Source of the DNA: Henricia sp. BOLD:AAB3569
Taxonomy: Eukaryota; Echinodermata; Asteroidea; Spinulosida; Echinasteridae
Reading direction: 5' to 3'
NCBI GenBank assembly: GCA_037783545.1
Contig: JBBELK010000001.1
Span: forward strand, 496,001 to 560,000
Length of the DNA: 64,000 nt
Every line of letters starts with the position of its first letter. Position 1 is the stretch's first letter. The notes under the pieces are model-generated. The model was not told where the DNA came from. It saw only the letters and a list, made by a program, of their open reading frames with translations, and ran no database searches. Both the position numbers and the translations under genes were made by a program. Positions 464-64,000 of this stretch are shown one piece after another.

Positions 464-2842
464 GTTCTGCAGTTAAGTGACAAGGAGGTTGATTCCTGGG
501 ACATTGTACAAGGAGCTAAAGGCCGAATTAAGACGCAACTGGAACAGCTGAGGTTTGTAATATTCACAGAGATAATAATACTAATAATTGAGACATTTAT
601 ATCATGCACATCCATCCCAAGAATGCTCAAGGCACTGTCACGTTATTACCCCACTACAGTACCCCACTATTTGTCGGGTACCGTGGCCGAGTGGTTTGGG
701 CCACTGACTTGCAACATTCGGGTGAAAACTTGGGGTTGCAGGTTCGATACCTGGCCGTGGTACCTGTGCCCTTGAGCAAGGCAATTAAACACTCTTGCTC
801 CATCCTTCGGAAGGGATGTAAAGCTAACTGCTTAAAAGATCCCAGGGGCACTCTTTTGTGAAGTGTAAGGGGATTATCCGGTGTCTCTGGCCGTCGGCTG
901 CCAATGGCGCCACCCACCTATGAATCTCGATGTTATCTCGACCTGAGAGTGGATTTAAATTAATCCTTGGAGATGCATCCGCTCTAATGCACGGAGGCTC
1001 CAAGAGGAGACTCCGGAAGGCACTTTGTATAACGCCTAATTACCACAGTTTGGCAGGCACAATCCTTTCTCTAATGGCCTAAATAGATGAATGGAGGTCT
1101 CCTCCAGACACAGCTGTTTACTGGGTCTGCAGTAGGGTGATTGATAGCTGCTTTTACGCTCGGCGGCAAAAGGGCCTTACTCGAACAACATATATAAAAA
1201 CATATGTTTGTACACAAATCAATGGGCCTGGGCTTGAGGCCAAGATTTCCAAGGGTGGACCTGACCGGTAAGTGAACTCAACATTAAAGGCGACTCCTGG
1301 GGCACAGACTAGACTAATCAATTGAGGATTATATGAAGTTTGAGCGTAATAGGGCCAAAGGTTTTTAGTAATTAAAAAGATATAAAAATGAGGGTTAAAA
1401 ATTGTCTCCAAATTTGTTGTCTCTATTGTTACCAACTCTCAGGCAAACAGGCCAGAGTGGGTTGAACGGCATGTCCCAGCTACTAAGCCACACGCCACCC
1501 CCATCTTACTACTACCATCATGGCCAGCTGTATCCACCATACAGCACCGCCGTGCTGTCACAGTTCCTAATGCAGCAACAAGGCGCAGGGGAGGGTACGG
1601 GTTCTGAAGGGTCTAGCTCACCATCAAGTCCTAGGGAAAGTTCAGATGAAAATGAAAGGGGTAAGATGGTTGGACTTTGTTTTTTGCACGTGTGCATTTT
1701 TGTACAAAGCATTTTAAGTATTATTCTCTCACAAAAAACGGATGCAATTTTCTTTCATATCAATTGATCGAATGAGAGATGACGTCAACAATGTAAACAA
1801 AACCACGTCGCGCACAGGTTTATGGGATTGTTTGGAGTACTCTGAAGAAATGGCCTATGGGGTATTAGCGATGGTCCGTGATTTTTAAGTCGTGGGTGCT
1901 GCGCTACTGTAAAAGTTTGTTATCAAAAATACTCCAGAGACTCTTGTGACTCTTCGGATGTGGTTCTAGTGCTGGGGTTTAACTGCACTCAGTTAAAGAG
2001 CGCAGTTTAATGTACTCAACACAAACACAATGAGCGGCAGTTCGGCGAGTATTCCATTTTAGCCCATCATGTTTTGCACAGAGAGGTATTGTTAGTCATT
2101 TCCTTGCAGGCTATTCTTAACCCTAACTCCATAGGGTGTATGTAAAATCCTATTTATTTTGGAGGATTGAGGACGGCAACTCGGGTACATTGACCTTGCA
2201 ACTGGAAGCAACTGGTTGCTGTCGATGTGCGCCTAACGTATTCAGACATACTTGTTCAACTGACGGCTGTACATGTAGTTGCAAGTACGCGTACATCGAT
2301 AAAACTGACCGCAACTTGATACAACTAGTTGCCAGAAAGTAGAACATGAGCAACTCGTGGCAACTTACGTGCATCGACCTTTTTAAACAACTGATCAGTT
2401 GCTCCCAGTTGCCACGAGTTGCTTCCAGTTGCCGGAAACATCAGCTGCCACTAGTTGCTTCCAGTTGCAATGTTGATGTACATTTGTACCCCAATGCAAG
2501 CCAAATTGCTGGTACTAATTTATGCGCCTAGTTAGAGAGAGACAATGTGGAGTAATGTGTCTTGTCTAAGGACACAACGCGACGGCAGTGACCAGACCTC
2601 AAACCATGGACCTATCACCGGAAAATCTGACGCACTATTCACTGAAACGCTGCGCCCCCGGCTATCTGTGAGATTGACTAAAACTTTGTTCTTTGTCTGC
2701 AGAATCTGAGGGGAGTGAAGGGTCTGTGCTGTCATCGCCTGATATTCGATCCAGAGCTGTTTCCAATAAAGAGGTTGTTGGGCAACAGCAGCAACAGCAA
2801 CAGCAGCAAAAACAGCATCAGCAACAGCGCCAACCAACACAA

Positions 2843-2886
<44 letters not shown>

Positions 2887-2890
2887 GCAG

Positions 2891-2955
<65 letters not shown>

Positions 2956-5560
2956 GCAGCAGCAGCAGCAGCAACTTTCCACCCAAAATGTCAGCAGCAC
3001 ACAAACCCGGACACAAATGGTCAACCCCCCCTACACACCAACCCAAATGGCGCTTCCGCAGGCAGCTCCTCTTCCAGGAAACACCCAGCTCTCCCAGCCG
3101 GCCATTCAAGGCCCCAATCCACCCGCTAACAACTACTACAACTATAATGCTGTCTGTCCTCAAAACACGGATCAGGTTTCGGGCAGGCCGGTGGATCTAA
3201 GGCGACTCATGGACTCAAATCAACGACAACTGGATAATCGCGTTAATCCCGTACCAATGATGGATATGAGTAATCAGTTAGGCAAAGCCGGAAACGGTGG
3301 CGGTGGTGGGATCAATGGGTCAGGCCTCAATGTACCAGTAGCAAGGCAGCAGATGCAAATGATGACCCACGTTGGTGATCCCAACTTGATGACTGTACCC
3401 CCACCAAACATTCCCCCTCCTCTGCTGCCTGCCCTTAACCAAATGGACGTCGGGTCGAACATTCCGCCGCAGGTTCTTAACATGAAGCAGCAGCAGCTAC
3501 AGCAACTTCCAGCACAACCCCAGCTGCAGCAACCAAGCATACCAGGACTTCAGTACTCTGTGGAGTGCCCCGACTCAGCCATATACAAAATGTCGTCTAT
3601 TGCTGTACCAGACGTCATCCCGACATCGACCGCTTCCTCAAGTTTGTCCATTCCATCGTCCCTTCCGTTGACTCCCAGGAACGAGGTGTTAACCCCAACC
3701 CTGTCCGGAGCCAGCAGCCCGCGGCTTCTCTCAAGTCCAGTCAACCCCAACTTCCCAGGCTCAAGAACAATTAGCTTTGCGCCGCCTAACGTCCCCGGGA
3801 CTTACACCATGCGGCCCGGCGGGGAACACTACCAAGACTTAACGTCAGTGACTTACGTAACCAGCATGGCGCAAACGCCATCGGTGAATCTGTCCAACAG
3901 TAGCGTGTACGAAAACAACCCTAATATGATGTATAACAATACCACCCACAGTGGTTACCCAATGGCGGCTAACCCAGGTTGTACATCATGTGGTTGTAAC
4001 GGACAATGTGGGAACGATGGGCCACACCACGGATCACTCCATCATTATCCCTTACACAATGCCTACCCATCCACCCAAGTCGCATACCAAAACCTCCCCA
4101 GTTTCTTCCCCGGTAACCTTCCTGGACTGCCCCCAACTAACAACCTCATCACCTCTCCCCTACCGGGAAATCGCCGCTTTCCCATGTTGCCTTTCCAAAA
4201 CGTCCCTAGCGAGATGCATTACGGAGGTAACGGGCAGCTAGGCTTCATGCCTCATGGACATTTGTACCTGAGTGGGATGGGGTATGGACACAGGGCCAAC
4301 CATGGGTCCCACGGTGGCAACAAGAAACTGACCTGCTATAACTGTGGTGGAGTCGGACATCGCTACGCTGATTGCAGGGAGCCCTCTATGGACAGTCAGA
4401 GTAAGTCGGTCTTGGAATTTTGGGAATAAGATTAGAGTGGAAACGAGCATTTTAAGAAACTAGCAGGAATTTTATCAACAATACTGGAGACTCTTTTGGG
4501 GTACCATAGCCCAGTGGTTTGGGTCACTGACTCGCAACACTCGGGTTAAAACGTGGGGTTGCGGGTTCGATACCCAGCTGTGGTACCTGTGCCATAGCTG
4601 CCAACTTCCCATATTTTGGAGAAGAAACCTGGAAAATAGGTTGACCTCCCGACTTCAGACACATCTAAAAATCTCTGAGGTTGTTAATTGACAATCCAGG
4701 AGGGTATTTTATCTGTGATAGGAGTCCCGCAATAGGTAATTTTAGAGGAATTTTTTTGAAAAATGCGGGAGGGTTGGCAGCTCTGCTGTGCCCATGAGCA
4801 AGGCACTTAAACACACTTGCTCCATCCTTCGGAAGGGATGTAAAGCCGTTGGCCCAATGTGTTGTGTAATGCATTTACACATCTTTCGTGAAGAGTAAGG
4901 GGATTCCCCGGTGTCTCTGGCCGTCCGCTGCCAATACCACCCACCAATGTATCTCGATGTTTAGGTGGAATTGCATAAAGCTTCATGCAATTCAGCCTAC
5001 GGGCAGCGAATTGAAATTCATTAAACCCAATTTTAAAAAATATCTGTACATTGGCTTGTATTTTCTCTCAAAATAAAAGAAATACAGTCGAGCCTCGTTA
5101 ATAAGATATTTATTTATTTTATTTATTTATTTATTCACCACATCCAACAGCGGAAGGACCGCCAATTACAGGAATGGGATCAATTAACATAGATATTCGA
5201 ATAACTATCAACTTCTAAGTTGAATTAGATCCTTAAGACAACAAGTCCTTTATTGAAAACACTGGCCAGCTTGGTGGTCGAGTGGTTAAGCCGTCTGCCT
5301 AGTATGCAGGAGGTCGTGGGTTCAAGTCCCACTCGTGCATGCTATGAAGTTTTTCTCATGGTGTCTCATCGGGGAAGCACTGAGTATACAGTGCTGATCA
5401 AGTTACGTAGGGTTGGGCAAAACAAACCCCTTATTAATATTCATTTTCTCCGACGCAAGCCAAATTGCATTTTCTTAACCCCTGATTGGGCAAAAAATTA
5501 TCTATTGCAGGTTACCGGTTGGACTACAAACCAGCTACTGAATCCAACACCAACAGCTAA
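464..5560 (+). CDS. ZCCHC14: ZCCHC14/ZCCHC2-family zinc-knuckle protein, 3' part (4 exons)
   Basis: Exons 464-552, 1443-1660, 2703-4400 and 5511-5560 have AG acceptors and GT donors (GTTTGT, GTAAGA, GTAAGT) and join in phase to 684 residues plus the TAA at 5558-5560. Exon 1 (VLQLSDKEVDSW, then GAKGRIKTQLEQL) resembles the last helices of a SAM domain. Exon 3 carries a long Gln-rich stretch, Pro/Ser/Asn-rich low-complexity sequence, a Cys-rich motif (CTSCGCNGQC) and near its end the CCHC knuckle CYNCGGVGHRYADC (C-X2-C-X4-H-X4-C). The last exon adds SYRLDYKPATES, matching the 'YRLKYAP..ES' tail of vertebrate ZCCHC14. In mammals ZCCHC14 uses its SAM domain to bind CNGG-type RNA loops and recruits TENT4 poly(A) polymerases; the same role here is inference. 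ZCCHC2 is the alternative relative. The start and most of the SAM domain lie upstream of the window. The open frame continuing past 4400 is intron read-through. Confidence 0.85.
553..1442 (+). other. intron 1 of the visible part of the zinc-knuckle gene
   Basis: It has a GT donor at 553 and an AG acceptor at 1441-1442 preceded by a pyrimidine-rich tract. It contains the tRNA-derived SINE at about 674-935. Nothing else coding was seen. Confidence 0.8.
674..935 (+). mobile_element. tRNA-derived SINE (family S1), copy 1
   Basis: The head has pol III promoter-like boxes: an A box around GTGGCCGAGTGG and a B box GGTTCGATACC. The extra-long variable region suggests a class II (Leu/Ser-like) tRNA ancestor. 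The body includes CCATCCTTCGGAAGGGATGTAAAG and ends near GGTGTCTCTGGCCGTCGGC. The same head and body recur at 4499-4963 and, on the other strand, at 32374-33075, which shows dispersal. It sits in an intron in gene sense orientation. Confidence 0.85.
1661..2702 (+). other. intron 2 of the visible part, with a GTTGC-rich repeat
   Basis: It has a GTAAG donor at 1661 and a TCTGCAG acceptor ending at 2702. At about 2190-2480 the motif AGTTGC, or its complement GCAACT, recurs many times in both orientations (for example CAGTTGCCACGAGTTGC). A piece of the same repeat lies at 6675-6717 (CAGTTGAGTTGCTTCCAGTT), so this is probably a dispersed palindromic element. No exon was seen. Confidence 0.7.
2782..2974 (+). 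repeat. CAG/CAA polyglutamine tract inside the zinc-knuckle gene
   Basis: This is a trinucleotide-type repeat within exon 3. A short Gln run broken by K, H, R and P leads into an uninterrupted run of 45 Gln codons at 2840-2974. CAG and CAA are mixed, with a stretch of pure CAA around 2923-2952 and pure CAG at the 3' end. The mixture should make it more stable than a pure CAG repeat. Length variation between individuals is likely. The minus strand and the other frames read as poly-Leu, poly-Cys or poly-Ser/Asn and are not genes. Confidence 0.95.
4499..4963 (+). mobile_element. tRNA-derived SINE (family S1), copy 2, interrupted by a small DNA element
   Basis: The tRNA-like head is at 4499-4587, with B box GGTTCGATACC. 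The body resumes at 4786 with the conserved CCATCCTTCGGAAGGGATG and ends near GTGTCTCTGGCCGTC. The middle is displaced by the insertion at 4594-4785. Compared with copy 1 it also has an extra segment around 4850-4885. Confidence 0.85.
4594..4785. mobile_element. hAT-like non-autonomous element nested in a SINE
   Basis: The ends are inverted: AGCTGCCAACTTCCC on the left, and GGGAGGGTTGGCAGCTCTG on the right, which read in reverse begins CAGAGCTGCCAAC, a hAT-style CAGRG start. The SINE sequence CTGTGCC is present on both sides (4587-4593 and 4786-4792), a 7-8 bp target duplication. Copy 1 of the SINE serves as the empty site. There is no coding capacity. Confidence 0.75.
5263..5341 (+). repeat. 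tRNA-like sequence, probably a SINE head
   Basis: It has an A-box-like TGGTCGAGTGG, an anticodon-stem-like CTGC/GCAG with loop CTAGTAT (anticodon position AGT) and a good T arm, GTGGG-TTCAAGT-CCCAC. The flanks do not pair as a 7-bp acceptor stem, so a functional tRNA-Thr is unlikely. It lies in the last intron of the zinc-knuckle gene. Confidence 0.6.
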
Positions 5561-15569: not shown

Positions 15570-16076
15570 AGATAGTATACATGATTGGTAAACTGTTACA
15601 AATAGATTTATCTCCCTGTGTGATTGAAAATATGCATGATTAAAACCAACCTGAGAAAAAACCAGCTCCGTACTTCGTCTAGCTTTTGAGAAAACATTAA
15701 ACAAAAAAAGAAGGTTTGCAGTCATTTTGCCCCAAAACTACTTCGCCCTGAACCACGGCCTGTGCACGAAGTGGTTTTGGGGCGAAGTAGCATATGGGCG
15801 ATGTAGTGTTTGGACGAAGTGATTTGGGGCAAAATGGCACTCGGGCGAAGTGGTTTGGGGCGAAATGGCACTTGGGTGAAATGGTTTTGGGGCGAATTGA
15901 ATTTTCGTCTCATAAGACGAAAAATAATTGTTTTACTCATTTCTCAAAGACTATAGCACTTCAGACAAAACCATTTCAGGGGAAGTTTTCTACGGTCATC
16001 ATGTTTATATTGTGTAAGTTAGGCGTAAATCTGTGAACATTTCTGATTTTCGTGATACCAATCATGTATACTGCCT
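15570..16076. mobile_element. TTAA-flanked non-autonomous DNA transposon (family T2), copy 1
   Basis: The ends are AGATAGTATACATGATTGGTA and, inverted, TACCAATCATGTATACTGCCT, with TTAA at 15566-15569 and 16077-16080. Between 15770 and 15895 a short motif, GGGCGAAGTGGTTTTGG, recurs about six times. A 464-bp relative at 32439-32902 has the same ends and fewer motif copies. Confidence 0.85.
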
Positions 16077-31062: not shown

Positions 31063-31164
31063 ATTTCAAAAAGGCTAATAGAATTTTAACATCTGAAGAT
31101 TTAAAATAAATAAAACTAAAACTATTTAAATCAAGTACTAGTTTACAAACAAATGTCTGTTGTC

Positions 31165-31487
31165 TGAGGAGGTCTGAAAGGACCATCTCCTGAGGAGGTC
31201 TGAAAGGACCATCTCCTGAGGAGGTCTGAAAGGACCATCTCCTGAGGAGGTCTGAAAGGACCATCTCCTGGGGAGGTCTGAAAGGACCATCTCCTGGGGA
31301 GGTCTGAAAGGACCATCTCCTGGGGAGGTCTGAAAGGACCATCTCCTGGGGAGGTCTGAAAGGACCATCTCCTGGGGAGGTCTGAAAGGACCATCTCCTG
31401 GGGAGGTCTGAAAGGACCATCTCCTGGGGAGGTCTGAAAGGACCATCTCCTGGGGAGGTCTGAAAGGACCATCTCCTGGGGAGGTCT
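31165..31487. repeat. 26-bp minisatellite, about 12.4 copies
   Basis: The unit is TGRGGAGGTCTGAAAGGACC followed by ATCTCC. Copies are nearly identical. The first four units carry TGAGGAGG and the later ones TGGGGAGG, so the array grew in two blocks. On the minus strand no frame contains a stop. Because 26 is not a multiple of 3, each frame reads the same 26-residue repeat in a different register. There is no start context or conservation to suggest a real protein. Confidence 0.95.
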
Positions 31488-31784
31488 TAAAACATTCCGT
31501 TATAGAAAACATGACTTTTCACCTTTTTTGGTATTACATTCAATAATAAAATATGCTCATATGATTTTTCTTTGATCCCAAGTTTTGTTGTTTCGTTTCA
31601 ATGGTGATTAGGCACAATACCATATATTGCGTTCATCCAATAATACAGAAACTTTAACAGAGAAACTGATAAATGGTATACATGTATACTGGATACATTT
31701 GGGATACATGGGGATTAATACTGTAAAACATGTAACGTGTTTGAATGGGAGTTCGAGCCTTGTGTATTATGTTGTGTTGCCATA
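31488..31784. other. intergenic sequence, no gene seen
   Basis: AT-rich, with a CATGTATACTGGATACATTTG stretch. Nothing supported. Confidence 0.35.
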
Positions 31785-34722: not shown

Positions 34723-36180
34723 GTTTTCTGCCCATTGTTTAGAGGTCAGTGAGACGAAGTCGCAACTCGGGCCGTCTCCGAATTTTATAGCTAAATCTTA
34801 AAATTATATATGAGTAATCAAGCCGTCTACCAATGACAGACGTAGCCTTCTAATAGACCAGAAGCATATTGACGTCATAATGACGTTTGTTTACATAGGT
34901 ACAATGCTATATTGAACATCATAAGAAACCTACCAAGATTTTTTCTTTTCTTTTTGTATGCATCTGTGTTAAAACGAAAATAATTGATTCCTAAATGTTA
35001 ATTTTACCTTTTGGTAACCCGAAATTGAGCACGACATGCTTGAGTGCCTCTCTATTTGTGAACTGCCCAATTTGACCTTTCTGCTGAAAATAGAAGAAAA
35101 CAAATCTTTATACGTTTCTTTCGAATTTCAGTATATCTTAGGGTATCAGACGGCGTATGGCCACAAGAAAATACGCATGTAAACAAACGATGTTTTGGGT
35201 CTATTCAGATGCATGCAGCCACACTTTGCTGCAGGATCAGGAACAAATGGCAGATCTGAGATATCAACGCATTGGTTAGTAACGGGCCTATCGTCGGTAC
35301 GTTTTTAATATGATGATGCCAAATGTACGTCCACAAATATGTGTTCCTTTAGTTTATATGTTGCTCGATACTGTGGGTACCTAATGGTGGGAGGTCCGCT
35401 AAATGTTTAAACCTAATGGCCAACATGCTGGCGATATTGAAGGCCACTTCTGACGCATTCATTCGCTTGTCTTCGCTTTGTCCCGCAGTAATCTCACGCA
35501 TGTACCGCAGGAGCCAAACCATCCTCGGGTCACGTTGCGTGCTGTCTTGACAATAGGGAGGGAAAAAACTCCGCAACTACTGGCATACACGGCAGTTGAA
35601 TGTTAATCACACGGACGGTTCGCCGGAGAGGGGTTTGCTTTTTTTCCCCCTTACCTCCCAGCCATTTTAATTCGATGTGTTTCCATGGATATTCCGCACG
35701 AGTGGTGCTGAATATTGTGGCCGGCCTTCTGAGCTCATGCGTGCGCAATTCGGAGTTCCTATAGCGACTGCGTGAGCAAAAAGAGCCGGTCTGTGATGGC
35801 GAAACGGTGATATCAGAGACGTGTAAAACTAGCATGACAGAGGGCATGGGTTTAAATATGCTGCTAGTATAGAAATGCATGCACATCGATTGCGGTGCTA
35901 ATGCCCGAAGTGGACATATTGAGCTATGTTCGTCGTGGTTTTAGTATTTGGCTTGTCCAAAAATATGCAAGCCGTTGTAGCAACACGTGTGTATTTTTGT
36001 CTTCCTAACACACGTGACTGGGAACACCGCGCGTGACTGTCGGCCCGCATCATAATCGAGCATGAAAGTATATAGGAAACGCAGGTCGGAATTGTTTGGA
36101 TATAAATCAGCGGTTGTAAACCATCGTAGTTCATCCGCACCCTGGCTGTGAGTTCGTGATGGCTAGATGAAGGGGATATA
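34723..36180. other. sequence upstream of the membrane-protein gene
   Basis: No repeat family was recognised. Minus-strand frames of 75-118 codons at 35349-36197 overlap each other and lack protein-like composition. The promoter of the 36181 gene should lie at its right end: TATATA at 36069-36074, about 110 bases before the ATG, is the best TATA-like match. Confidence 0.4.
36069..36074 (+). promoter_or_regulatory. possible TATA box of the membrane-protein gene
   Basis: AGTATATAGGAA lies 107 bases before the ATG, with no intervening ATG in the same frame. It is position-based only. Confidence 0.25.
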
Positions 36181-37320
36181 ATGGATCTAAACACCACAGA
36201 TGAAGCAACGGTTCCGGGGACAATAGCGTCTACAATCGCTGGCCGTGATGGGACGGGGACGCCCCATCGACCTCTCGCTACGACCCCGCAAGGGGCTGCT
36301 TGCTCGGCGGACTGGGCCTACACCATGACCGTACTGGGAGCGGGGCTAGACATCCACGTCTACGGGTTTATCGTGGTGTATTCCTTCACTGCAATCGTCT
36401 CCCTAGCTCGCCTCTACAAACTCTACACATTCCGGGCCGGTCGCCTCATGAGTGGTTTCCAGTTCAAGACGAACATGCACATGGCCACTCTCATATTCAT
36501 CCTTCTACGTATTACAGGTTTGTTACTAGACCCCTACGGTTCTCGCTGCCGAGCCCATCCACTCATCGTGGGATTGCTGTGGTCTCTTGCCTTTCCCTGC
36601 CTTGCCGTGGCGCTTAGCCTTCTACTTTTAGTCATACTCGAGACCACTAAACTCTACCCCAATTGGCCTTGTATCATTCACCGCACTTGGACTCTCGCTA
36701 CGAGCACCATGCTTTATACCACCGTGCTTGTCCTCAAGGATGTATTGCAGCACCTCCCCGTTCCCACCGCCGCCACCATCTTCAACGTTCTTTCACTGGT
36801 TATCTTTGCAATCTGGGGTCTTATCATGATGCTGGGTTATTTCTACGTTGCCCGTAAAATCCGCAACAGTTTACGAACCAGCAATAGCCCGATAGAGAGC
36901 GGGGCGCTGCGGCACTTCTCCGTGCTGCTGCTCGCCTGTGGTTCTGTGGGCCTTGTCACCATCATGATGCAGATTTTCTCTGCGGTCACCGAGTACGGAT
37001 TCAAGACCCCTCCCGAAGCAGCGCTGGCCCGGATCAATCCGTGGGTCTGGTGGTGTTTGCAGTCGGCTATCCGAGCTCTAGAATCGGCCATGTCGTGTCT
37101 TCTCATCCTGGTTGCTAGTCGTATTGACAACAAGAGGCAAGTCCAAGTGGCACCGGGAACTGTCTGGGAGTGGCCGAGGATGCACGGCTGGAGCCTGGAA
37201 GCTGTGCCCGCTAGGCCCGGCCGGCCGGTCCCACTCACGCCAAAGCGTGACAACGATCCTGAAATTCAGGCCAAGCCGACCACCGCCGAAACCCCCACGG
37301 CTCAAACACAGAGACTCTGA
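36181..37320 (+). CDS. multi-pass membrane protein, resembles the PRRT3/PRRT4 membrane domain
   Basis: Intronless frame of 379 residues, ATG at 36181 and TGA at 37318-37320. A short N-terminal region with an N-glycosylation site (NTT, residue 4) precedes about seven hydrophobic segments, near residues 58-75, 100-117, 127-152, 168-186, 197-222, 247-268 and 288-312. Key stretches are DIHVYGFIVVYSF, RITGLLLDPYGSR, AFPCLAVALSLLLLVILE and ESAMSCLLILVASR. The order 'HVYG, LLLDPYGSR, FPCL, LE(T)TK' fits my recollection of the membrane domain of vertebrate PRRT3/PRRT4 proteins, which have a much longer Pro-rich extracellular part. It lacks the DRY and NPxxY motifs of rhodopsin-type GPCRs. The tail (338-379) is Pro/Thr-rich and presumably cytoplasmic. 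The gene is clearly GC-richer than its surroundings, as expected for real coding sequence. Its function is unknown. A retrocopy or a terminal exon of a larger gene are alternatives. Confidence 0.75.
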   Translation: MDLNTTDEATVPGTIASTIAGRDGTGTPHRPLATTPQGAACSADWAYTMTVLGAGLDIHVYGFIVVYSFTAIVSLARLYKLYTFRAGRLMSGFQFKTNMHMATLIFILLRITGLLLDPYGSRCRAHPLIVGLLWSLAFPCLAVALSLLLLVILETTKLYPNWPCIIHRTWTLATSTMLYTTVLVLKDVLQHLPVPTAATIFNVLSLVIFAIWGLIMMLGYFYVARKIRNSLRTSNSPIESGALRHFSVLLLACGSVGLVTIMMQIFSAVTEYGFKTPPEAALARINPWVWWCLQSAIRALESAMSCLLILVASRIDNKRQVQVAPGTVWEWPRMHGWSLEAVPARPGRPVPLTPKRDNDPEIQAKPTTAETPTAQTQRL

Positions 37321-48502: not shown

Positions 48503-48533
48503 GTTATTAATGTCGCGGGCGTACACTGCAAAA

Positions 48534-48752
48534 ACTGCGTTATTAAATTAACACCGGTGGTGTTGTCTTATATAGATACCAAGCCTGGTGTTGAAATTTA
48601 ACACCGTGGGTGTTAGTTATTATTCCTCAATTGGAATAAATTCGAATAAGGTGTTAAAACTAATACTTGTGGTGTCAAATTTTAACACCAGGCTTGGTAT
48701 CTATATAAGACAACACCACTGGTGTTAATTTAACACCACAGTTTTTGCAGTG
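48534..48752. mobile_element. TA-flanked foldback element with GGTGTTAA palindromes
   Basis: The ends CACTGCAAAAACTG and CAGTTTTTGCAGTG are perfect inverted repeats, with TA on both sides (48532-48533 and 48753-48754). The arms continue pairing for about 80 bases (ACACCAGGCTTGGTATCTAT and ATAGATACCAAGCCTGGTGT). The motif TTAACACC or GGTGTTAA recurs several times. No coding capacity. Confidence 0.85.
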
Positions 48753-48754
48753 TA

Positions 48755-52220: not shown

Positions 52221-52454
52221 TATAAGTCAGAAGTTTACATACATGTACATAATACCACTACCATCATCACCCAAAATGGTAAACACTGACTACCCGAACC
52301 ATTGCAAGGTGTGCAAGCTATGTTTTAAGTACTGCAAGCACGTGAGGAATTCCACAACATCACGACTTTAGTAAAGACTGTTACAAAAATGGTGAACGCA
52401 TGTTTAAGCGCACCAGTTTTAACACAGCTGTATGTAAACTTCTGACTTCAACTG
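52221..52454. mobile_element. Tc1/Sleeping Beauty-ended short element, copy 1
   Basis: The right end GTAAACTTCTGACTTCAACTG followed by TA is the inverse of the Sleeping Beauty-type end CAGTTGAAGTCGGAAGTTTAC. The left end is shortened (TAAGTCAGAAGTTTACATAC). The interior is over 90% alike by eye to 59816-60048. No transposase. Confidence 0.8.
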
Positions 52455-52616
52455 TATATCCAAAATAACATGGATCTGCATTTTGTGAGTACACTCTAAA
52501 AACAGATTGGTTGAATTAACCAATATATTGGTCAAATTCAACCAATGTGGTTGGTAGATATGTGTCCAACCAATCTATTGGTTAAAATAACCAATCTGAT
52601 ATGGTTTACTTTTTCA

Positions 52617-53215
52617 ACCAATCCATATTGGTTAGAATACTAACCAACCAATCCATATCGGTTAGAATACTAACCAACATGTCTTGGTTGTTTAGTTGAC
52701 CAATCCATATTGGTTACGATATTAACCAACATCCCTTGGTTGTATATTTAACCAATCCATATTGGTTAGAATACTAACCAACAAGTCTTGGTTGAGTTGA
52801 CCAATCCATATTGGTGGAAATATTAACCAACATTTCTTGGTTGTTTATTTAACCAATCCATATTGGTTAGAATATTAACCAACATGTCTTGGTTGTTTAG
52901 TTGACCAATCCATATTGGTTAGAATACTAACCAACAAGTATTGGTTGTTTAGTTGACCAATCCATATTGGTTGGTATATTAACCAACATGTCTTGGTTGT
53001 TTATTTAACCAATCCATATTGGTTAGAATACTAACCAACATGTCTTGGTTGTTTAGTTGACCAATCCATATTGGTTGGAATATTAACCAACATGTCTTGG
53101 TTGTTTATTTAACCAATCCATATCGGTTAAAATATTAACCAACATATCTTGGTTGTTTATTTAACCAATCTAGATCGGTTAACGTTTTAACCAATCCATA
53201 ACCAATCTTGATTGG
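52617..53215. repeat. 52-bp minisatellite, left arm of the foldback element
   Basis: The unit is CCAATCCATATTGGTTAGAA, then TATTAACCAACATGTCTTGG and TTGTTTATTTAA. Starts at 52700, 52752, 52801, 52853, 52905, 52957 and 53009 show a 52-bp period (one 49). About eleven units. Each unit holds two palindromic pairs. Confidence 0.95.
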
Positions 53216-53836
53216 TTAAATTCCCAGCCAATACATATTGGTTAGAATACTAACCATTTCATATTGGTCAAGACAACCAATATATTTGTTAAAGATAACC
53301 AAATATATTGCTTCAAAAGACCAAAAAATGGTCAACATTAACCAATTATAATGGCTGGAATGACCAATATTATTGGTTAAAGTTGCCAGGCAAGTGGTTT
53401 GGTTTAATTTGTTTACAGAACAACATGATTTAATATAGACCAACATAATTGCTGGGGTTCATCCTGTACATGTTTTATTTTAAAGAATGTCGCTGCATAT
53501 ACATTTAAAATGGACACCGAGCATGGATTCACATACTATACAGTACAGCTGCAGAGTTGAAAAGATGATTATTTTTTATCTCTGTACTGCATGCATGGAG
53601 TGGACATTTAATTTAATATTACAATTTTTAAAAAGACGCAAGCGTCTGGAGCGTCACTGCTGTTACATGCATATTTGATCGGCGCTAGCTGTGTTTGTAA
53701 ACAAACGTTATTGCGTCACTTTGTTTTTTTATATTAATTTGTTGTATCCTGTTCCTTAAGAAATAGTAATAGGCAAACATGATGATGGCTTTTCTTGCCT
53801 TCACAAGATAATTCACTTTATAGATAACCTGACTGT

Positions 53837-55726
53837 TTAATACAAACAAACAATTCCTTGGCATCCAGCATTGTGTTTCCTAAGAATGAGGACCTGTAGC
53901 TGCCTAGTCACTTCCCGATTTCTGCATTCCTCGTCCCTCACCTGGATATAGCCAGCAAAGTCGGCTCCACGCTGAAAAGCAAGGTTCATATATGTTAGCA
54001 AATTTGAAACTCGGAATTGTTAAACTGTTGACATAGGTGTAAGTTTTCAGTCGGCAGGCTCACACAATGTAAAATATCACAAACTTGCAAAGCATTAACT
54101 GCTATAATTGGGTCCTCTTTTCCTTACATCTGGACTATCAGATACAGTATCCTACCGCAAGTTTTCAATGCAGATTGATGTGTGTGACTGCCAACCCTGT
54201 CTATGCTAACTGGCGGCATTTAACATGTCGCATACATTTTGTTTCCAAAACCTCAAAAACCAAAGTATCTTCAATGATACCAATTACCTTCAGTGCAATG
54301 AAGGCTCTCCGTTTTTCCACTATGCTTGGCTAGCTTCCACCTTTTTTCCTTCGAGGTAGACTCTGTTCTTTGTGTTACACATGTAGTATAATGTCCTCTG
54401 CAAAGAAGCAATCAAGGAATAATAAATAGGAGTGCATTAATAACATATCATAGATATTGGTCACACCAAAATAAATGGCGAATTTCCTTAAAGCAATGTC
54501 TGGCAAGTGCACTGCTGTAGTACCTCTCGAGAGACCCCTCTCCTGAGAAGTTCCAGTCTAATATAAAACATACAACCTGGGCTTCTAAATCAGTCTTTTC
54601 TGTGTAATGTCAACTCTGACCAATTCTTATGAATCCACTGGCGCTAGGATGGTCACCTACCGAAGGTGCACAGTGAATGTCAACATTATTTTTAAAAATC
54701 GAACCACCTCTGTCATATTTAAAAAAATACTGTGCAAAAAAATTAAGCTTAATAAAGAGAGCAAAACTAACCTGGGAATAGGGAGTAGTCGGCATATCCT
54801 CTTCTGCATCATCATTCTGTTCCATGTTGTTTATTCAAATCGGCTACAAGACGCACAGCTGTGTCATTTAATACAGCGGTCTAGCTCATGGAAGTCCATT
54901 ATCTGCTACATGTACCTCGAGTGTCAGCCTGTTCCCCGAAAAGAGATCGAAGTCCACGTCAATCTGAGATACGCAATAATTATGAAATAAACAACAACAA
55001 CAAAAACACGTTAAAATATGCAGGGAAGATTGCTTCACAGGCATATAGTGTAAACTGTCTCATGACATTACTGTGGAAGTTGATACACAAATACTGCAGT
55101 TTGCACTGCTATAAAATTCAAGGCTAACCAGGACCCCATGCCAAGAACTGGTCATGAGCCTCCACACAGCATGCACACGGTGGCCGTCCTTGGAGGGGAT
55201 TGGACTGACCACTGTACATATACCCATGCATATACCATGGAGGAATATACAAAGTGCGTACTGTGGACGTCCCATATTATAATGTATTTACATGTACTTT
55301 GTAAATGCCATGCAACTTTGAAAAAGTCAGAACTGTCCTCAAAGTAAAAACTTACTAAATTACAACTTAACATCGCTTATCTTTCTCAAATATTCATTTA
55401 TGTGGGATGAATATACCAACAGCTTCTCCCATTATTCTATCGGTTTCGTGCTCTCATTTCAAAACCTCTACAAAACGGTGAATTTTAGACCACACCATGC
55501 ATTCGGAAGATCAATAACTACTTTTGTCCAAGTTGATACAAAATAAAATGTAAACATATATCCTACCTGAAAAGCGGGTGAAAAGCAGAGGAAACTGACA
55601 ACGGATGCAAGAAAGCAGCGGATTGTAGAGGATCGAAGGTAACAGTTTGACTAGTGTTTGACCGTTTGAAACTACTGCATGCCGTAAAAATGCTGACCAC
55701 AGCATGAAGCGCTCCTCGTGGCTCAT
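53837..55726 (-). CDS. candidate six-exon gene in the foldback element core, unknown product
   Basis: On the minus strand six segments can be joined in phase: 55726-55567 (ATG, MSHEERFMLWSAFLRHAVVS), 55211-55129, 54963-54916 (IDVDFDLFSGNRLTLE), 54816-54772 (ends TTPYSQ), 54397-54341 (YYMCNTKNRVYLEGKK) and 53971-53837 (DEECRNREVTRQLQVLILRK, then TAA). They total 528 bases, 175 residues. Good sites are the donor TTTTCAG|GTAGGA, the acceptors CTCAG|ATT, TTTGCAG|AGG and TTTTCAG|CGT, and the donor CCCAG|GTTAGT. Weak points are the acceptor before 54816 and the donor GTGGAA after exon 5. The stronger donor GTAATT at 54287 would shift the last exon out of frame. The last exon looks helical and charged. 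No family recognised. Confidence 0.3.
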
Positions 55727-56379
55727 GGTAATTCCACTTTCATACAGGGTTATTCCAAATGCATTAAGAAATGAGTATAAATAAAGGCTATAATGCTTAA
55801 AATCTTTGACAAAATAATAGGACTGAAATTTCAATAATTTCAATTCCTTGATATTGCATGACAAAGTTTGAATATACAATTATGTTCTACTTCTCTTTGG
55901 AATGGATCATCTTGCACCAGTGACCTCCCCCAAAATAGTGGAATCGGTCCTACTGTAGGCAACCAACAAGGATTGGTTGAAAGTTAAACCAATATGTGAT
56001 TGGTTACCGGACAATCAGCCTAACAGAGCTCTGCACCAATTAGGTATTGGTTGAAACCAATTGAAGATTGGCTCATGTGTGAACCAATTACCAATATAAC
56101 GATGGTTAATATCTGAACCAATGTGATTGTGCCACAATTCTAATGTCAACCATTGGAGATTGGTTAATTGCTGAAAGGCTGCTTGATATCTGATAATGAA
56201 TCTAGCCTAGTTGGTCACAAATTGTGAATAATGTGACTGGTTGTTTGACAACCAATCACAAAAGTTTAAATCAATGGTTAATGACTAAAACAATGATTGA
56301 CTGCCGGATAACCAACATTAATTGGTCACCGTCATTTCGCCTATGTATTAAACAAATTGCTCATCATTGCTCAACAACC

Positions 56380-57800
56380 AATATATTGGTCACTAATATA
56401 TTGGTTAAAGGATTGATTTATCGCTCAACCAATTTGATTGGTTGCTGGACAGCCAACATATTGGTCGTATTGACCAATGTATTGGTTAAAGGATTGGTTT
56501 ATTACTCAACCAATGTGATTGGTTGTTGGACAACCAACATATTGGTCACAATTGACCAATGTATTGGTTAAAGGATTGGTTTATTACTCAACCAATGTGA
56601 CTGGTTGCTGGACAACCAACATATTGGTCACTATATTGACCAATGTATTGGTTAAAGGATTGGTTTATTACTCAACCAATGTGACTGGTTGCTGGACAAC
56701 CAACATATTGGTCACTATTGACCAATGTATTGGTTAAAGGATTGGTTTATTACTCAACCAATGTGAGTGGTTGTTGGACAACCAACATATTGGTCACTAT
56801 TGACCAATGTATTGGTTAAAGGATTGGTTTATTACTCAACCAATGTGATTGGTTGTTGGACAACCAACATATTGGTAACTATTGACCAATGTATTGGTTA
56901 AAGGATTGGTTTATTACTCAACCAATGTGACTGGTTGCTAGACAACCAACATATTGGTCACTATTGACCAATGTATTGGTTAAAGAATTGGTTTATTACT
57001 CAACCAATGTGATTGGTTGCTGGACAACCAACATATTGGTCGTTATTGACCAATGTATTGGTTAAAGGATTGGTTTATTACTCAACCAATGTGACTGGTT
57101 GCTGGACAACCAACATATTGGTCACTATTGACCAATGTATTGGTTAAAGAATTGGTTTATTACTCAACCAATGTGACTGGTTGCTGGACAACCAACATAT
57201 TGGTCGTTATTGACCAATGTATTGGTTAAAGGATTGGTTTATTACTCAACCAATGTGATTGGTTGTTGGACAACCAACATATTGGTCACAATTGACCAAT
57301 GTATTGGTTAAAGGATTGGTTTATTGCTCAACCAATGTGATTGGTTGCTGGACAACCAACATATTGGTCGTTATTAACCAATGTATTGGTTAAAGGATTG
57401 GTTTATTACTCAACCAATGTGACTGGTTGCTGGACAACCAACATATTGGTCACTATTGACCAATGTATTGGTTAAAGAATTGGTTTATTACTCAACCAAT
57501 GTGACTGGTTGCTGGACAACCAACATATTGGTCGTTATTGACCAATGTATTGGTTAAAGGATTGGTTTATTACTCAACCAATGCCATTGGTTGCTTGACA
57601 ACCAACATATTGGTCAGATTATTGACCAATGTATTGGTTAAAGGATTGGTTTATTGATCAACCAATGTGACTGGTTGCTGGACAACCAACATATTGGTCA
57701 GAATTGACCAATGTATTGGTTAAAGGATTGGTTTATTACTCAACCAATGTCATTGGTTGCTAAACAACCAACGTATTGGTCACTAGTTAACCAATATATT
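56380..57800. repeat. 82-bp minisatellite, right arm of the foldback element
   Basis: The unit begins GACCAATGTATTGGTTAAAG and continues GATTGGTTTATTACTCAACC. Starts at 56472, 56554, 56638, 56720 and 56802 give an 82-bp period (one 84). About 17 units, with two alternating variants (GTGACTGGTTGCTGG and GTGATTGGTTGTTGG). Confidence 0.95.
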
Positions 57801-57985
57801 GGTTGGAAACAACCAATATGGGGTCAACCAATTAGATTGGTAGTTTTTTTAACCAATCTGTTTTTAGAGTGTAGGAACATTTTGCGTTTTTATTGGTATA
57901 ATTATAGACGCCATCTTGACGAGCCCAAAAAGTCTGAAGGTTCCGGCTTCAGTGTTGTTCCGGTTGGCTATTTTTACAACATTAA

Positions 57986-60231: not shown

Positions 60232-63200
60232 AAAACTAAAACTAGACCTGTGTTCGTTCTTGACAACGAACACATGGCTGTTCCCCTCCTTTTTATAAAC
60301 ATATATGGTGTTCGGGATGACCTTTGTTAGTGATCGTATATGAAGAAATCACGATCGTATGTCAAACGGTCGAGTTTTTATCGATTTTTAAATATCGAAT
60401 TTTATTACATGCCCCTTTAATCTGACATGTAGGGAAGGTCAAAGGTGTTGATATATGTTTGGATACCCCACCCTAGTCGAAGTGTAACACAGTTGACCCC
60501 ATCGTGATATATTGTACCCCTTTCAAATGGAAAGGCAAAATCTGTTTGACCAATAGGAAACGAGGTCAAAGGTCAAGCCATGTGCGCATCTTAAAGACAT
60601 TTGTTAGTGATCGTATATGCAGAAGGAATCAATTTCGAAGGTCAAACGGTAGATTTTGTATTGATTTTTAAATATTTAATTACGTAATCATCTTGTCGCT
60701 AGAGGGCGCTATTTCGTACGATGACGTCATCTCTTATATTTTTGGAAAGCTTAAGGGCCTCTGATAATAACACCATTGACCCTATCTCAATACCTCCTAC
60801 CACTTTCAAACTAAGGGCCACTTCCGGTTTCGACCGGAAATGAGCAAGGTCAAAGGTCACGACCATATTTTTTGGATACACCACCCTAGGTCTAAGTGTA
60901 ATACAGTTGACCACATCCAGATATCTTGTACCACTTTCAAATGGCAAGGCAAAATCTGTTTGACCAATAGGAAACGAGGTCCAAGGTCAAGGGGTGTGCG
61001 CATCTCAAAGACCCTTGTTAATCATCGTATATGGCGAAGTAATCAAGATCGTAGGTCAAACGGTTGATTTTGTATTGATTTTCCAATATTTCATTACGTA
61101 ATCATCTTGTCGCTAGAGGGCGCTATTTCGTACGATGACGTCATCTCTTATATTTTTGGAAAGCTTAAGGGCCTCTGATAATAACACCATTGACCCTATC
61201 TCAATACCTCCTACCACTTTCAAACTAAGGGCCACTTCCGGTTTCGACCGGAAATGAGCAAGGTCAAAGGTCACGACCATATTTTTTGGATACACCACCC
61301 TAGGTCTAAGTGTAATACAGTTGACCACATCCATATATCTTGTACCACTTTCAAATGGCAAGGCAAAATCTGTTTGACCAATAGGAAACGAGGTCCAAGG
61401 TCAAGGGGTGTGCGCATCTCAAAGACCCTTGTTAATCATCGTATATGGCGAAGTAATCAAGATCGTAGGTCAAACGGTTGATTTTGTATTGATTTTCCAA
61501 TATTTCATTACGTAATCATCTTGTCGCTAGAGGGCGCTATTTCGTACGATGACGTCATCTCTTATATTTTTGGAAAGCTTAAGGGCCTCTGATAATAACA
61601 CCATTGACCCTATCTCAATACCTCCTACCACTTTCAAACTAAGGGCCACTTCCGGTTTCGACCGGAAGTGAGCAAGGTCAAAGGTCACCAACATATTTTT
61701 TACATACCCCACCCTAGTCGAAGTGTAACACAAGTGACTTTGTCCAAATATCTTGCACCACTTTCAAATGGCAAGGCAAAATCTGTTTGACCAATAGGAA
61801 ACGAGGTCAAAGGTCAAGGCGTGTGCGCATCTTAAAGACTTTTGTTAGTCATCGTATATGGCGAAGGAATCAAGATCGTAGGTCAAACGGTTGAATTTTT
61901 ATTGATTTTTGAATATTTAATTTATTAAACTTCATACCCCTTTAATCTGACACGTGATGACGTCATCATGACGTCATTAGTACTGTGCACAACTTCACAT
62001 AGTGACCAATGTCCATGTGAAGTTTGAAGTCAATCATCAATGTGCAAGTGTCCGAAATAGCGTCTGAAAAAAATGGAAGAAGTAAAAGAATAAAAACTAG
62101 ACCTGTGTTCGTTCTTGACAACGAACACATGGCTGTTCCCCTCCTTTTTATAAACATATATGGTGTTCGGGATGACCTTTGTTAGTGATCGTATATGAAG
62201 AAATCACGATCGTATGTCAAACGGTCGAGTTTTTATCGATTTTTAAATATCGAATTTTATTACATGCCCCTTTAATCTGACATGTAGGGAAGGTCAAAGG
62301 TGTTGATATATGTTTGGATACCCCACCCTAGTCGAAGTGTAACACAGTTGACCCCATCGTGATATATTGTACCCCTTTCAAATGGCAAGGCAAAATCTGT
62401 TTGACGAACAGGAAACGAGGTCAAAGGTCAAGCCGTGTGCGCATCTTAAAGACATTTGTTAGTGATCGTATATGCAGAAGGAATCAATTTCGTAGGTCAA
62501 ACGGTAGATTTTGTATTGATTTTTAAATATTTAATTACGTAATCATCTTGTCGCTAGAGGGCGCTATTTCGTACGATGACGTCATCTCTTATATTTTTGG
62601 AAAGCTTAAGGGCCTCTGATAATAACACCATTGACCCTATCTCAATACCTCCTACCACTTTCAAACTAAGGGCCACTTCCGGTTTCGACCGGAAATGAGC
62701 AAGGTCAAAGGTCACGACCATATTTTTTGGATACACCACCCTAGGTCTAAGTGTAATACAGTTGACCACATCCAGATATCTTGTACCACTTTCAAATGGC
62801 AAGGCAAAATCTGTTTGACCAATAGGAAACGAGGTCCAAGGTCAAGGGGTGTGCGCATCTCAAAGACCCTTGTTAATCATCGTATATGGCGAAGGAATCA
62901 AGATCGTAGGTCAAACGGTTGATTTTGTATTGATTTTCCAATATTTCATTACGTAATCATCTTGTCGCTAGAGGGCGCTATTTCGTACGATGACGTCATC
63001 ACTTATATTTTTGGAAAGCTTAAGGGCCTCTGGTAATAACACCATTGACCCCATCTCAATACCTCCTACCACTTTCAAACTAAGGGCCACTTCCGGTTTC
63101 GACCGGAAGTGAGCAAGGTCAAAGGTCACCAACATATTTTTTACATACCCCACCCTAGTCGAAGTGTAACACAAGTGACTTTGTCCAAATATCTTGCACC

Positions 63201-64000
63201 ACTTTCAAATGGCAAGGCAAAATCTGTTTGACCAATAGGAAACGAGGTCAAAGGTCAAGGCGTGTGCGCATCTTAAAGACTTTTGTTAGTCATCGTATAT
63301 GGCGAAGGAATCAAGATCGTAGGTCAAACGGTTGAATTTTTATTGATTTTTGAATATTTAATTTATTAAACTTCATACCCCTTTAATCTGACACGTGATG
63401 ACGTCATCATGACGTCATTAGTACTGTGCACAACTTCACATAGTGACCAATGTCCATGTGAAGTTTGAAGTCAATCATCAATGTGCAAGTGTCCGAAATA
63501 GCGTCTGAAAAAAGTGGAAGAAGTAAAAGAATAAAAAACTAGAAATGTGTCCGTTGAAAACGAACACATGGCTGTTCCCCTCCTTTTTATAAACATATAT
63601 GGTGTTCGGGATGACCTTTGTTAGTGATCGTATATGAATAAATCACGATCGTAGGTCAAACGGTTGAGTTTTTATCTATTTTTAAATATTGAATATTATT
63701 ACATGCCCCTTTAATCTGACATGTAGGGAAAGTCAAAGGTGTTGCTATATGTTTGGATACCCCACCCTAGTCGAAGTGTAACACAGTTGACCCCATCGTG
63801 GTATATTGTACCCCTTTCAAATGGCAAGGCAAAATCTGTTTGACCAATAGGAAACGAGGTCAAAGGTCAAGCCATGTGCGCATCTTAAAGACATTTGTTA
63901 ATGATCGTATATGCAGAAGGAATCAAATTCGTAGGTCAAACGGTAGATTTTATATTGATTTTTGAATATTTAATTACGTAATCATCTTGTCGCTAGAGGG
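60232..64000. repeat. satellite array with higher-order repeat, continues past the window
   Basis: The anchor TTGTTAGTGATCGTATATG or its variant recurs at 60324, 60601, 61015, 61429, 61842, 62179, 62456, 62870, 63283, 63618 and 63895. Spacings are 277, 414, 414, 413, 337, then 277, 414, 413, 335, then 277. The higher-order unit is 1855 bp the first time and 1439 bp the second, which lacks one 414-bp subunit. Every unit carries AGGTCAAAGGTCA or AGGTCCAAGGTCA. The 414-bp subunits carry TTCCGGT-TTCG-ACCGGAA hairpins, CGCTAGAGGGCGCTA and TGACGTCA. Recurring frames of 75-82 codons here are shadows of the repeat. Confidence 0.95.

Follow-up and report, generated by a model that had tools for sequence, protein, structure and literature searches.

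Within a 64,000-nucleotide stretch of the genome of the sea star Henricia sp. BOLD:AAB3569 (contig JBBELK010000001.1, positions 496,001 to 560,000; hereafter the window), we recognized a complete DNA transposon of 5,380 bp at positions 52492-57871. It belongs to a dispersed family whose members carry two tandem arrays of different period between short terminal inverted repeats (TIRs). The element is probably a non-autonomous cut-and-paste transposon of CACTA/EnSpm-like (CMC-clade) type, with amplified subterminal repeats and moved in trans. This is a new family of known design, not a new kind of element. An earlier reading of the same DNA from its letters (hereafter the sequence-only reading) had labelled it Foldback-type.

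Paired ends and empty insertion sites

The two TIRs pair at 21 of 21 positions, a mismatch first appearing at position 22, and TA stands on either side of the element; on both points the sequence-only reading had described the ends correctly. The 23-mer made of TA and the TIR, searched with up to 3 mismatches, occurs twice in the window and not at all in 100 dinucleotide shuffles. Across the assembly (740.7 Mb in 2,104 contigs), exact copies of it were found 118 + 109 times, and those of a reversed-pattern control 0 + 0 times. Genome searches report best places, so these and the other copy numbers are lower bounds. No exact TIR was found on viral contigs.

As a sample of long copies, 10 kb was fetched at each of 20 of the next 21 left ends, a tandem neighbour in contig C396 being skipped. 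In 17 of these 20 copies both TIRs are perfect and are enclosed by identical 2-bp flanks, TA in 15 cases and TG in two (L023 and L028). As for the remaining three, L016 is part of a tandem pair, the right end of L021 is diverged and about 5 kb off, and that of L011 lies 10.9 kb away, outside the fetched span. All 20 have the left array, and the core can be aligned in each of them (along 1.4 kb in L011). Among the best 40 left ends, 35 have a same-strand right end 4.3-11.8 kb away and 36 have the core; C972 was scored as a miss in this count, yet copy L020 there shows both ends.

Thus, the dispersed mobile element with internally repetitive termini that had been proposed exists as a family of full-length copies. 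The sequence-only reading had also named two outcomes that would speak against it: ends never paired around the same core, and arrays occurring as ordinary satellites without the ends. The counts of right ends and cores given above show the pairing, and every listed array match lies on a contig with a right end, which is a weak test, with the best 40 of 239 candidates scored.

The family is young and recently mobile, as its cores lie 0.6-1.8% from their majority (22 cores; pairwise median 2.1%); those of L026 and L028 are 0.04% apart and occupy different sites. No description of the motif or the family was found in literature searches, and the TIR string is absent from the text matches, in both cases among the matches listed, so that the element can to this extent be regarded as undescribed, as had been supposed.

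Two copies were considered in other roles and rejected. The one at C99:4110767 (L048), taken as a version with a different core, has the same core, older, at 93% by substitutions and with no exon-like conservation pattern. The 11.8-kb copy at C245:2137391, taken as autonomous, includes 4.3 kb of read stretch unlike the family, with no frame above 85 amino acids (aa). The tandem pair (L016, C396:683799-696285) consists of two whole elements head to tail; where they meet, the right TIR of one element lacks its last bases and is followed directly by its neighbour's intact left TIR.

When the flanks of the window copy are joined, they match 143 bp of C888 at 99%, with a single TA there. The assembly therefore also contains this site unoccupied, either on the other haplotype or in a duplicated segment. 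Six of 27 prepared joined flanks, each including the 2-bp flank once, were searched in the genome and five matched across the junction, four of them at 100% and that of L018 at 95%. For the TG-flanked copy L023, the empty site (96%, single TG) lies inside the window, at 15771-15968. When 37 joined flanks were compared with sequence already fetched, seven matched across the junction (L017, L019, L023, L026, L031, L040, and L047), the match of L031 having a gap exactly at the junction. Matches of L032, L038, and the window copy to the elements themselves were half-sites and were dropped. Empty sites, one of the signs by which the sequence-only reading proposed to judge its element, thus exist for the window copy and for five of six other sites. 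The TG pairs demonstrate a duplication, because TG is not self-complementary. Judging by these sequences, insertion is precise, with a 2-bp duplication at TA and sometimes at TG.

About 35 bp to the left of the element, at ~52222-52456, there is a Tc1-like short inverted repeat, with ends that we take to be of Tc1 type. The C888 match starts just past the end of this repeat; the query contained only nine repeat bases, and its absence there is a weak hint.

Arrays, core, and short relatives

Repeat detection bore out the two arrays of period 52 and 82 and the non-repetitive core of about 2.6 kb between them, much as first described. Matches at the respective period reach 87% on the left and 93% on the right (Table 1). 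One small correction is that the motif-rich zones extend beyond the arrays proper. TTGGTT/AACCAA occurs 49 times in the left zone, twice in the core, and 91 times in the right zone, the means of simple shuffles being 0.5, 1.7, and 1.3. The ATTGGTT/AACCAAT motif is all that we see in common between the 52-bp and 82-bp units, and ATTGGTT also forms the inner portion of the TIR.

Arrays of period 52 were found at the left of all 20 fetched copies (4.4-13.4 units) and arrays of period 82 at the right of 19 (8.1-21.1 units), the twentieth being L011. In all 19 copies with both arrays read, the two differ in unit and period. Array-length variation, which the sequence-only reading had thought worth looking for, is seen even among near-identical copies: L009 and L015 have cores 0.24% apart and right arrays of 10.9 and 9.9 units.

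Each array can fold on itself, as had been suggested: all four pieces taken from the arrays surpass every one of 200 shuffles in folding (z -5.4 to -5.9). Three core pieces gave z values of -2.1, 0.2, and -3.0, and one of them likewise beats all 200 shuffles. The companion idea that the arrays could pair with each other holds for short pieces only. The complementary left-right pieces measure 46 nt at 78%, 40 nt at 73%, 31 nt at 90% (TIR included), and 18 nt at 94%. When the outermost 110 bases of the two ends are aligned with generous gaps, 59 of 70 letters beyond the TIR pair.

The profile search for a transposase that had been suggested for the core was run on pieces of its translated frames and gave no Pfam match above the cut-off; one weak match (E 0.033, below its cut-off) was dropped. 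Among the stop-to-stop frames read inside the elements, the longest are 162 aa or less. On these two results, a transposase in the core was rejected.

The sequence-only reading had also spoken of a spliced core. What stood of this is an acceptor-like site with a decayed exon: the minus strand at 53977-53796 carries an exon-like, frameshifted stretch behind a splice-acceptor-like AG. C489 and C6, outside the listed core copies, match this stretch together with the preceding intron-like sequence (77% over 348 bases and 74% over 264 bases), and C489 retains a 72-aa open stretch. Six more loci (C229, C129, C6, C111, C8, and C303) match the second half of the exon at 34-43% identity, with open frames of 104-152 aa. 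We infer that the ancestor of the core was a spliced gene belonging to a small gene family of this genome; it would have been either a former accessory gene of the transposon or a captured host gene. The six loci were also considered as neighbours of Transposase_21 genes and rejected, no Transposase_21 loci being near them.

The 100 exact ends listed (of 227) comprise 38 single ends and two sets of pairs, 21 of them short (171-743 bp) and 10 long (4.3-5.4 kb). Eighteen of the short pairs were read. Their arms are inverted at 90-99% over 90 bases (with gaps cheap), and in all 18 the right arm is nearer to the long element's left end than to its right end. They were chosen by a pattern with TA at both sides, and their TA flanks prove nothing. 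The middle is unrelated in L037, L041, and L046, L043 is doubled inside, and period-22 repeats are common in the other short copies. L032 and L038, short copies at the same site, differ in length by 22 bp. The short relatives are foldback miniature inverted-repeat transposable elements (MITEs): the foldback idea suits them, not the long element.

Flanks shared in two places around differing interiors were noticed twice among them, for L037 and L043 (unrelated middle vs. doubled) and for L034 and L042 (208 vs. 253 bp).

Thirty-five of the 38 single ends were read for 440-800 bases, and 29 of these have a second, changed end within 5 errors, some of these second ends being doubtful (e.g. L075, L078). 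Single exact TIRs were therefore rejected as autonomous elements. In the case of L050, L057, L058, L067, L079, and L089, no second end was found within the stretch read, and the motif fades inward. No transposase was seen in the translations of L050, L057, L058, and L067, which were read by eye and with no family search run; genes further in are possible.

Table 1. Features of the transposon and its insertion site (window positions)
Feature	Positions	Strand	Evidence
Target-site duplication, left (TA)	52490..52491	.	Empty site in C888 with single TA
TIR, left, 21 bp, CACTCTAAAAACAGATTGGTT, array motif at inner end	52492..52512	+	Exact copies genome-wide
Motif-rich zone, left (ATTGGTT/AACCAAT, both orientations)	52505..53387	.	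Motif counts
Tandem array, left, unit 52 bp x 10.4	52646..53181	.	Period-52 array in 20/20 fetched copies
Core, non-repetitive, without long open frame, without Pfam domain above cut-off	53390..55960	.	
Putative decayed exon of a spliced gene, frameshifted; open-frame relatives elsewhere in the genome	53796..53977	-	
Motif-rich zone, right	55962..57850	.	Motif counts
Tandem array, right, unit 82 bp x 17.1	56395..57804	.	Period-82 array in 19/20 fetched copies
TIR, right, 21 bp	57851..57871	-	Inverted copy of left TIR
Target-site duplication, right (TA)	57872..57873	.	Empty site in C888

Superfamily and the possible role of the arrays

The element looks built like CACTA: the start of the TIR, the duplication, and the subterminal repeats fit. 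Its termini read CACTC...GAGTG and so contain CAC...GTG, the fifth base differing from CACTA/CACTG. A subterminal motif is reiterated in both orientations, as in CACTA/EnSpm elements. The 2-bp duplication seen in flanks and empty sites fits the animal TRC variant only, not the 3-bp plant/fungal form. A second short element of the window, a 233-bp MITE at 48522-48754, is flanked by TA, has the TIR CACTGCAAAAACTG(T/C)G, and contains seven copies of GGTGTTA/TAACACC. Exact copies of its end number 219 + 234 across the genome, against 0 + 0 for the control. This MITE repeats the same plan with a different motif, in support of the CACTA-like reading.

Inspection of L048 by eye revealed an inverted repeat nested at element positions ~1893-2103. 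Its ends resemble CACTCTAAGAAAT and its motifs are of the GGTGCA type, so that it may represent a third CACT family, again with a private motif.

The genome contains 23 matches to Transposase_21, and 22 of these are free of inner stops. Six loci (C8, C560, C899, C1324, C1368, and C1776) carry the same Transposase_21 stretch, with near-equal scores and open frames of 613-758 aa. A transposase of CACTA type may therefore be at work in this genome.

We propose that a transposase encoded elsewhere in the genome would recognise the CACTCTAAAAACAG end and excise the element, which would then be reinserted at TA or at times at TG, duplicating 2 bp. The TIR itself contains the first of the ATTGGTT/AACCAAT sites. 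These sites are most likely landing pads of the mobilising enzyme, to which either the transposase would bind or a TNPA-like helper that gathers and pairs both ends. Because the arrays are tandem, they could grow and shrink by slippage or unequal exchange, and retention of the sites while the spacers drift would lead to unrelated 52-bp and 82-bp units at the two sides. In the window copy and the 20 fetched copies, non-consensus letters make up 1.4% of the motif columns on the left and 1.5% on the right, and 10.5% and 10.9% of the spacers, so that motif columns are about 7-fold less variable. None of the rotations of the motif mask (0/50 left, 0/81 right) reached the observed difference.

Several points weigh against this proposal. 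The TIR begins with CACTC, not CACTA/G, and the duplication in plant CACTA elements is 3 bp long. Among the 100 exact ends listed, no element with this TIR was seen to contain a transposase. Five of the 23 Transposase_21 loci lie on contigs with listed TIRs (C8, C95, C96, C245, and C254) and have no listed TIR within 600 kb. The only five TIRs that continue differently are on contigs where neither Transposase_21 nor DUF1258 has a match. The 6 kb around a 758-aa Transposase_21 frame (L073, C8:339600-345599) contain three loose TIR matches (3-4 mismatches), none pairing, and one loose CACT pair with 3 mismatches and flanks that do not match. Additionally, one of the six sites searched, that of L010, is without an empty counterpart. 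As regards the motif, the left rotation margin is thin (observed 0.0902 vs. best rotation 0.0880), and the unit counts behind the comparison (200 left and 257 right) are inflated by concerted evolution inside arrays.

Other kinds of element have to be weighed as well. TA flanks in 15 of the 17 two-ended fetched copies might suggest a Tc1/mariner-like element; Tc1/mariner elements are known to insert at TA only, and with L023 and L028 lying between TG pairs, and the empty site of L023 showing a single TG, such an origin is hardly credible. Foldback elements have long inverted termini, and a classical member of that type, moving or rearranging via its self-complementary ends, would agree with the good folding of the array strands and with the inverted arms of the short relatives that share the TIR. 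In the long element, the inverted part amounts to the perfect 21 bp plus short, weaker pieces, and long inverted tandem-repeat termini with complementary arms are not found. The arrays are different repeats sharing a 7-mer, unlike in unit, period, and length; in 0 of the 19 fetched copies in which both could be read are they mutually inverted. Insertion is moreover precise and leaves a short duplication, the outcome expected of a transposase. With two arrays that do not copy one another, the long element does not qualify as a strict foldback; the Foldback-type label was given up, and such an identity is very improbable. Mirage-like elements duplicate TA, and a non-autonomous element of this or another TA-duplicating superfamily (PHIS/ISL2EU-like or ESTA-like), with a coincidental CACT start and otherwise the same mechanism, is a realistic, if unlikely, alternative. 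TA duplications are reported for PHISTA and ESTA (PMC12730594; this and the other papers cited are represented by excerpts), which counts against the CACTA assignment, as does the lack of a transposase tied to this TIR among the ends listed. The CACT...AGTG termini and the palindromic, asymmetric subterminal repeats match CACTA and argue the other way, together with the same plan of the second CACT element in the window. A CACTA/EnSpm-like element with amplified subterminal repeats, an architecture known from the excerpted source (PMC2613891), would thus be a better frame than Foldback.

The arrays could also be ordinary minisatellites without a role that expanded within the element, their motif kept by youth and homogenisation alone. 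The units are highly similar, tandem repeats inside the TIRs expand and contract in Galileo F copies, according to the excerpt (PMC3573991), and the left rotation control comes near the observed value. We nevertheless regard this as rather unlikely: one 7-mer is kept in two arrays with unrelated spacers, within the TIR, and also in MITEs of yet another period (~22 bp), and the variation is concentrated in the spacers. A tentative extension, which we hold to be possible, is that subterminal minisatellites are selected amplifiers of transposition. Each CACT-type family would own a private 7-mer (ATTGGTT; GGTGTTA), copies would compete by tandem multiplication, and the motif would co-evolve with its binding protein, the free spacers giving rise to differing periods.

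The family is a natural series of tens of near-identical copies with differing site numbers per end, along with miniatures, and lets one ask whether more binding sites bring more transposition. The element suggests a route from one binding site to two unrelated minisatellites, and the genome holds two CACT-type families with different subterminal motifs.

Elsewhere in the window, we noted a tandem repeat with a 414-bp unit in two blocks (60458-63363), a minisatellite with a 26-bp unit (31164-31491; 12.6 copies, 99% matches), a long open frame for a polyglutamine protein with a zf-CCHC knuckle (2678-4429), and a 386-aa open frame with no Pfam match at E 0.01 (36160-37320).

Comparison with known systems

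Galileo elements duplicate 7 bp. In the excerpt of their description, 7-bp flanks are mentioned (PMC3573991). Galileo, of the P superfamily, resembles the present element in having end-proximal tandem repeats, with copy number changing independently on each side; a likeness listed for GalileoG is secondary transposase sites. It differs in its long inverted termini and P-type transposase (PMC3573991). Tetris/DAIBAM, as far as the excerpt goes, is likewise non-autonomous, with terminal tandem repeats, a short relative with the same ends, and no autonomous partner found; it differs in its ~220-bp units within long TIRs, 8-10 bp duplications, and Mutator assignment (PMC4079207).

Animal CACTA relatives have 2-bp duplications (PMC1636069), and elements of the CMCT clade mostly end in 5'-CA..TG-3' and duplicate 2-5 bp (PMC12730594), in the portions of these papers available. 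With the animal TRC element SmTRC1, our element shares the 2-bp duplication and an internal tandem-repeat region. The ends of SmTRC1 start with CCC, its TIR is 54 bp long, and it encodes Transposase_21 (PMC1636069), whereas the present element starts with CACTC and no transposase was found in it.

Further parallels come from plants. In the excerpted account of En/Spm, the subterminal repeats are bound by TNPA and act as cis-determinants of excision; soybean Tgmt* carries 4 left and 24 right subterminal repeats that are palindromic and contain a 7-bp submotif (PMC2613891). Unlike Tgmt*, the element described here has a 2-bp and not a 3-bp duplication, CACTC in place of CACTA, no working gene that we could see, and subterminal repeats in the form of two long minisatellites of different period. 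In common with Tgmt* and plant CACTA elements, it has a short CACT-type TIR and asymmetric palindromic subterminal repeats with a 7-bp submotif, and in plant CACTA elements, too, the motifs vary between families of one genome (PMC2613891).

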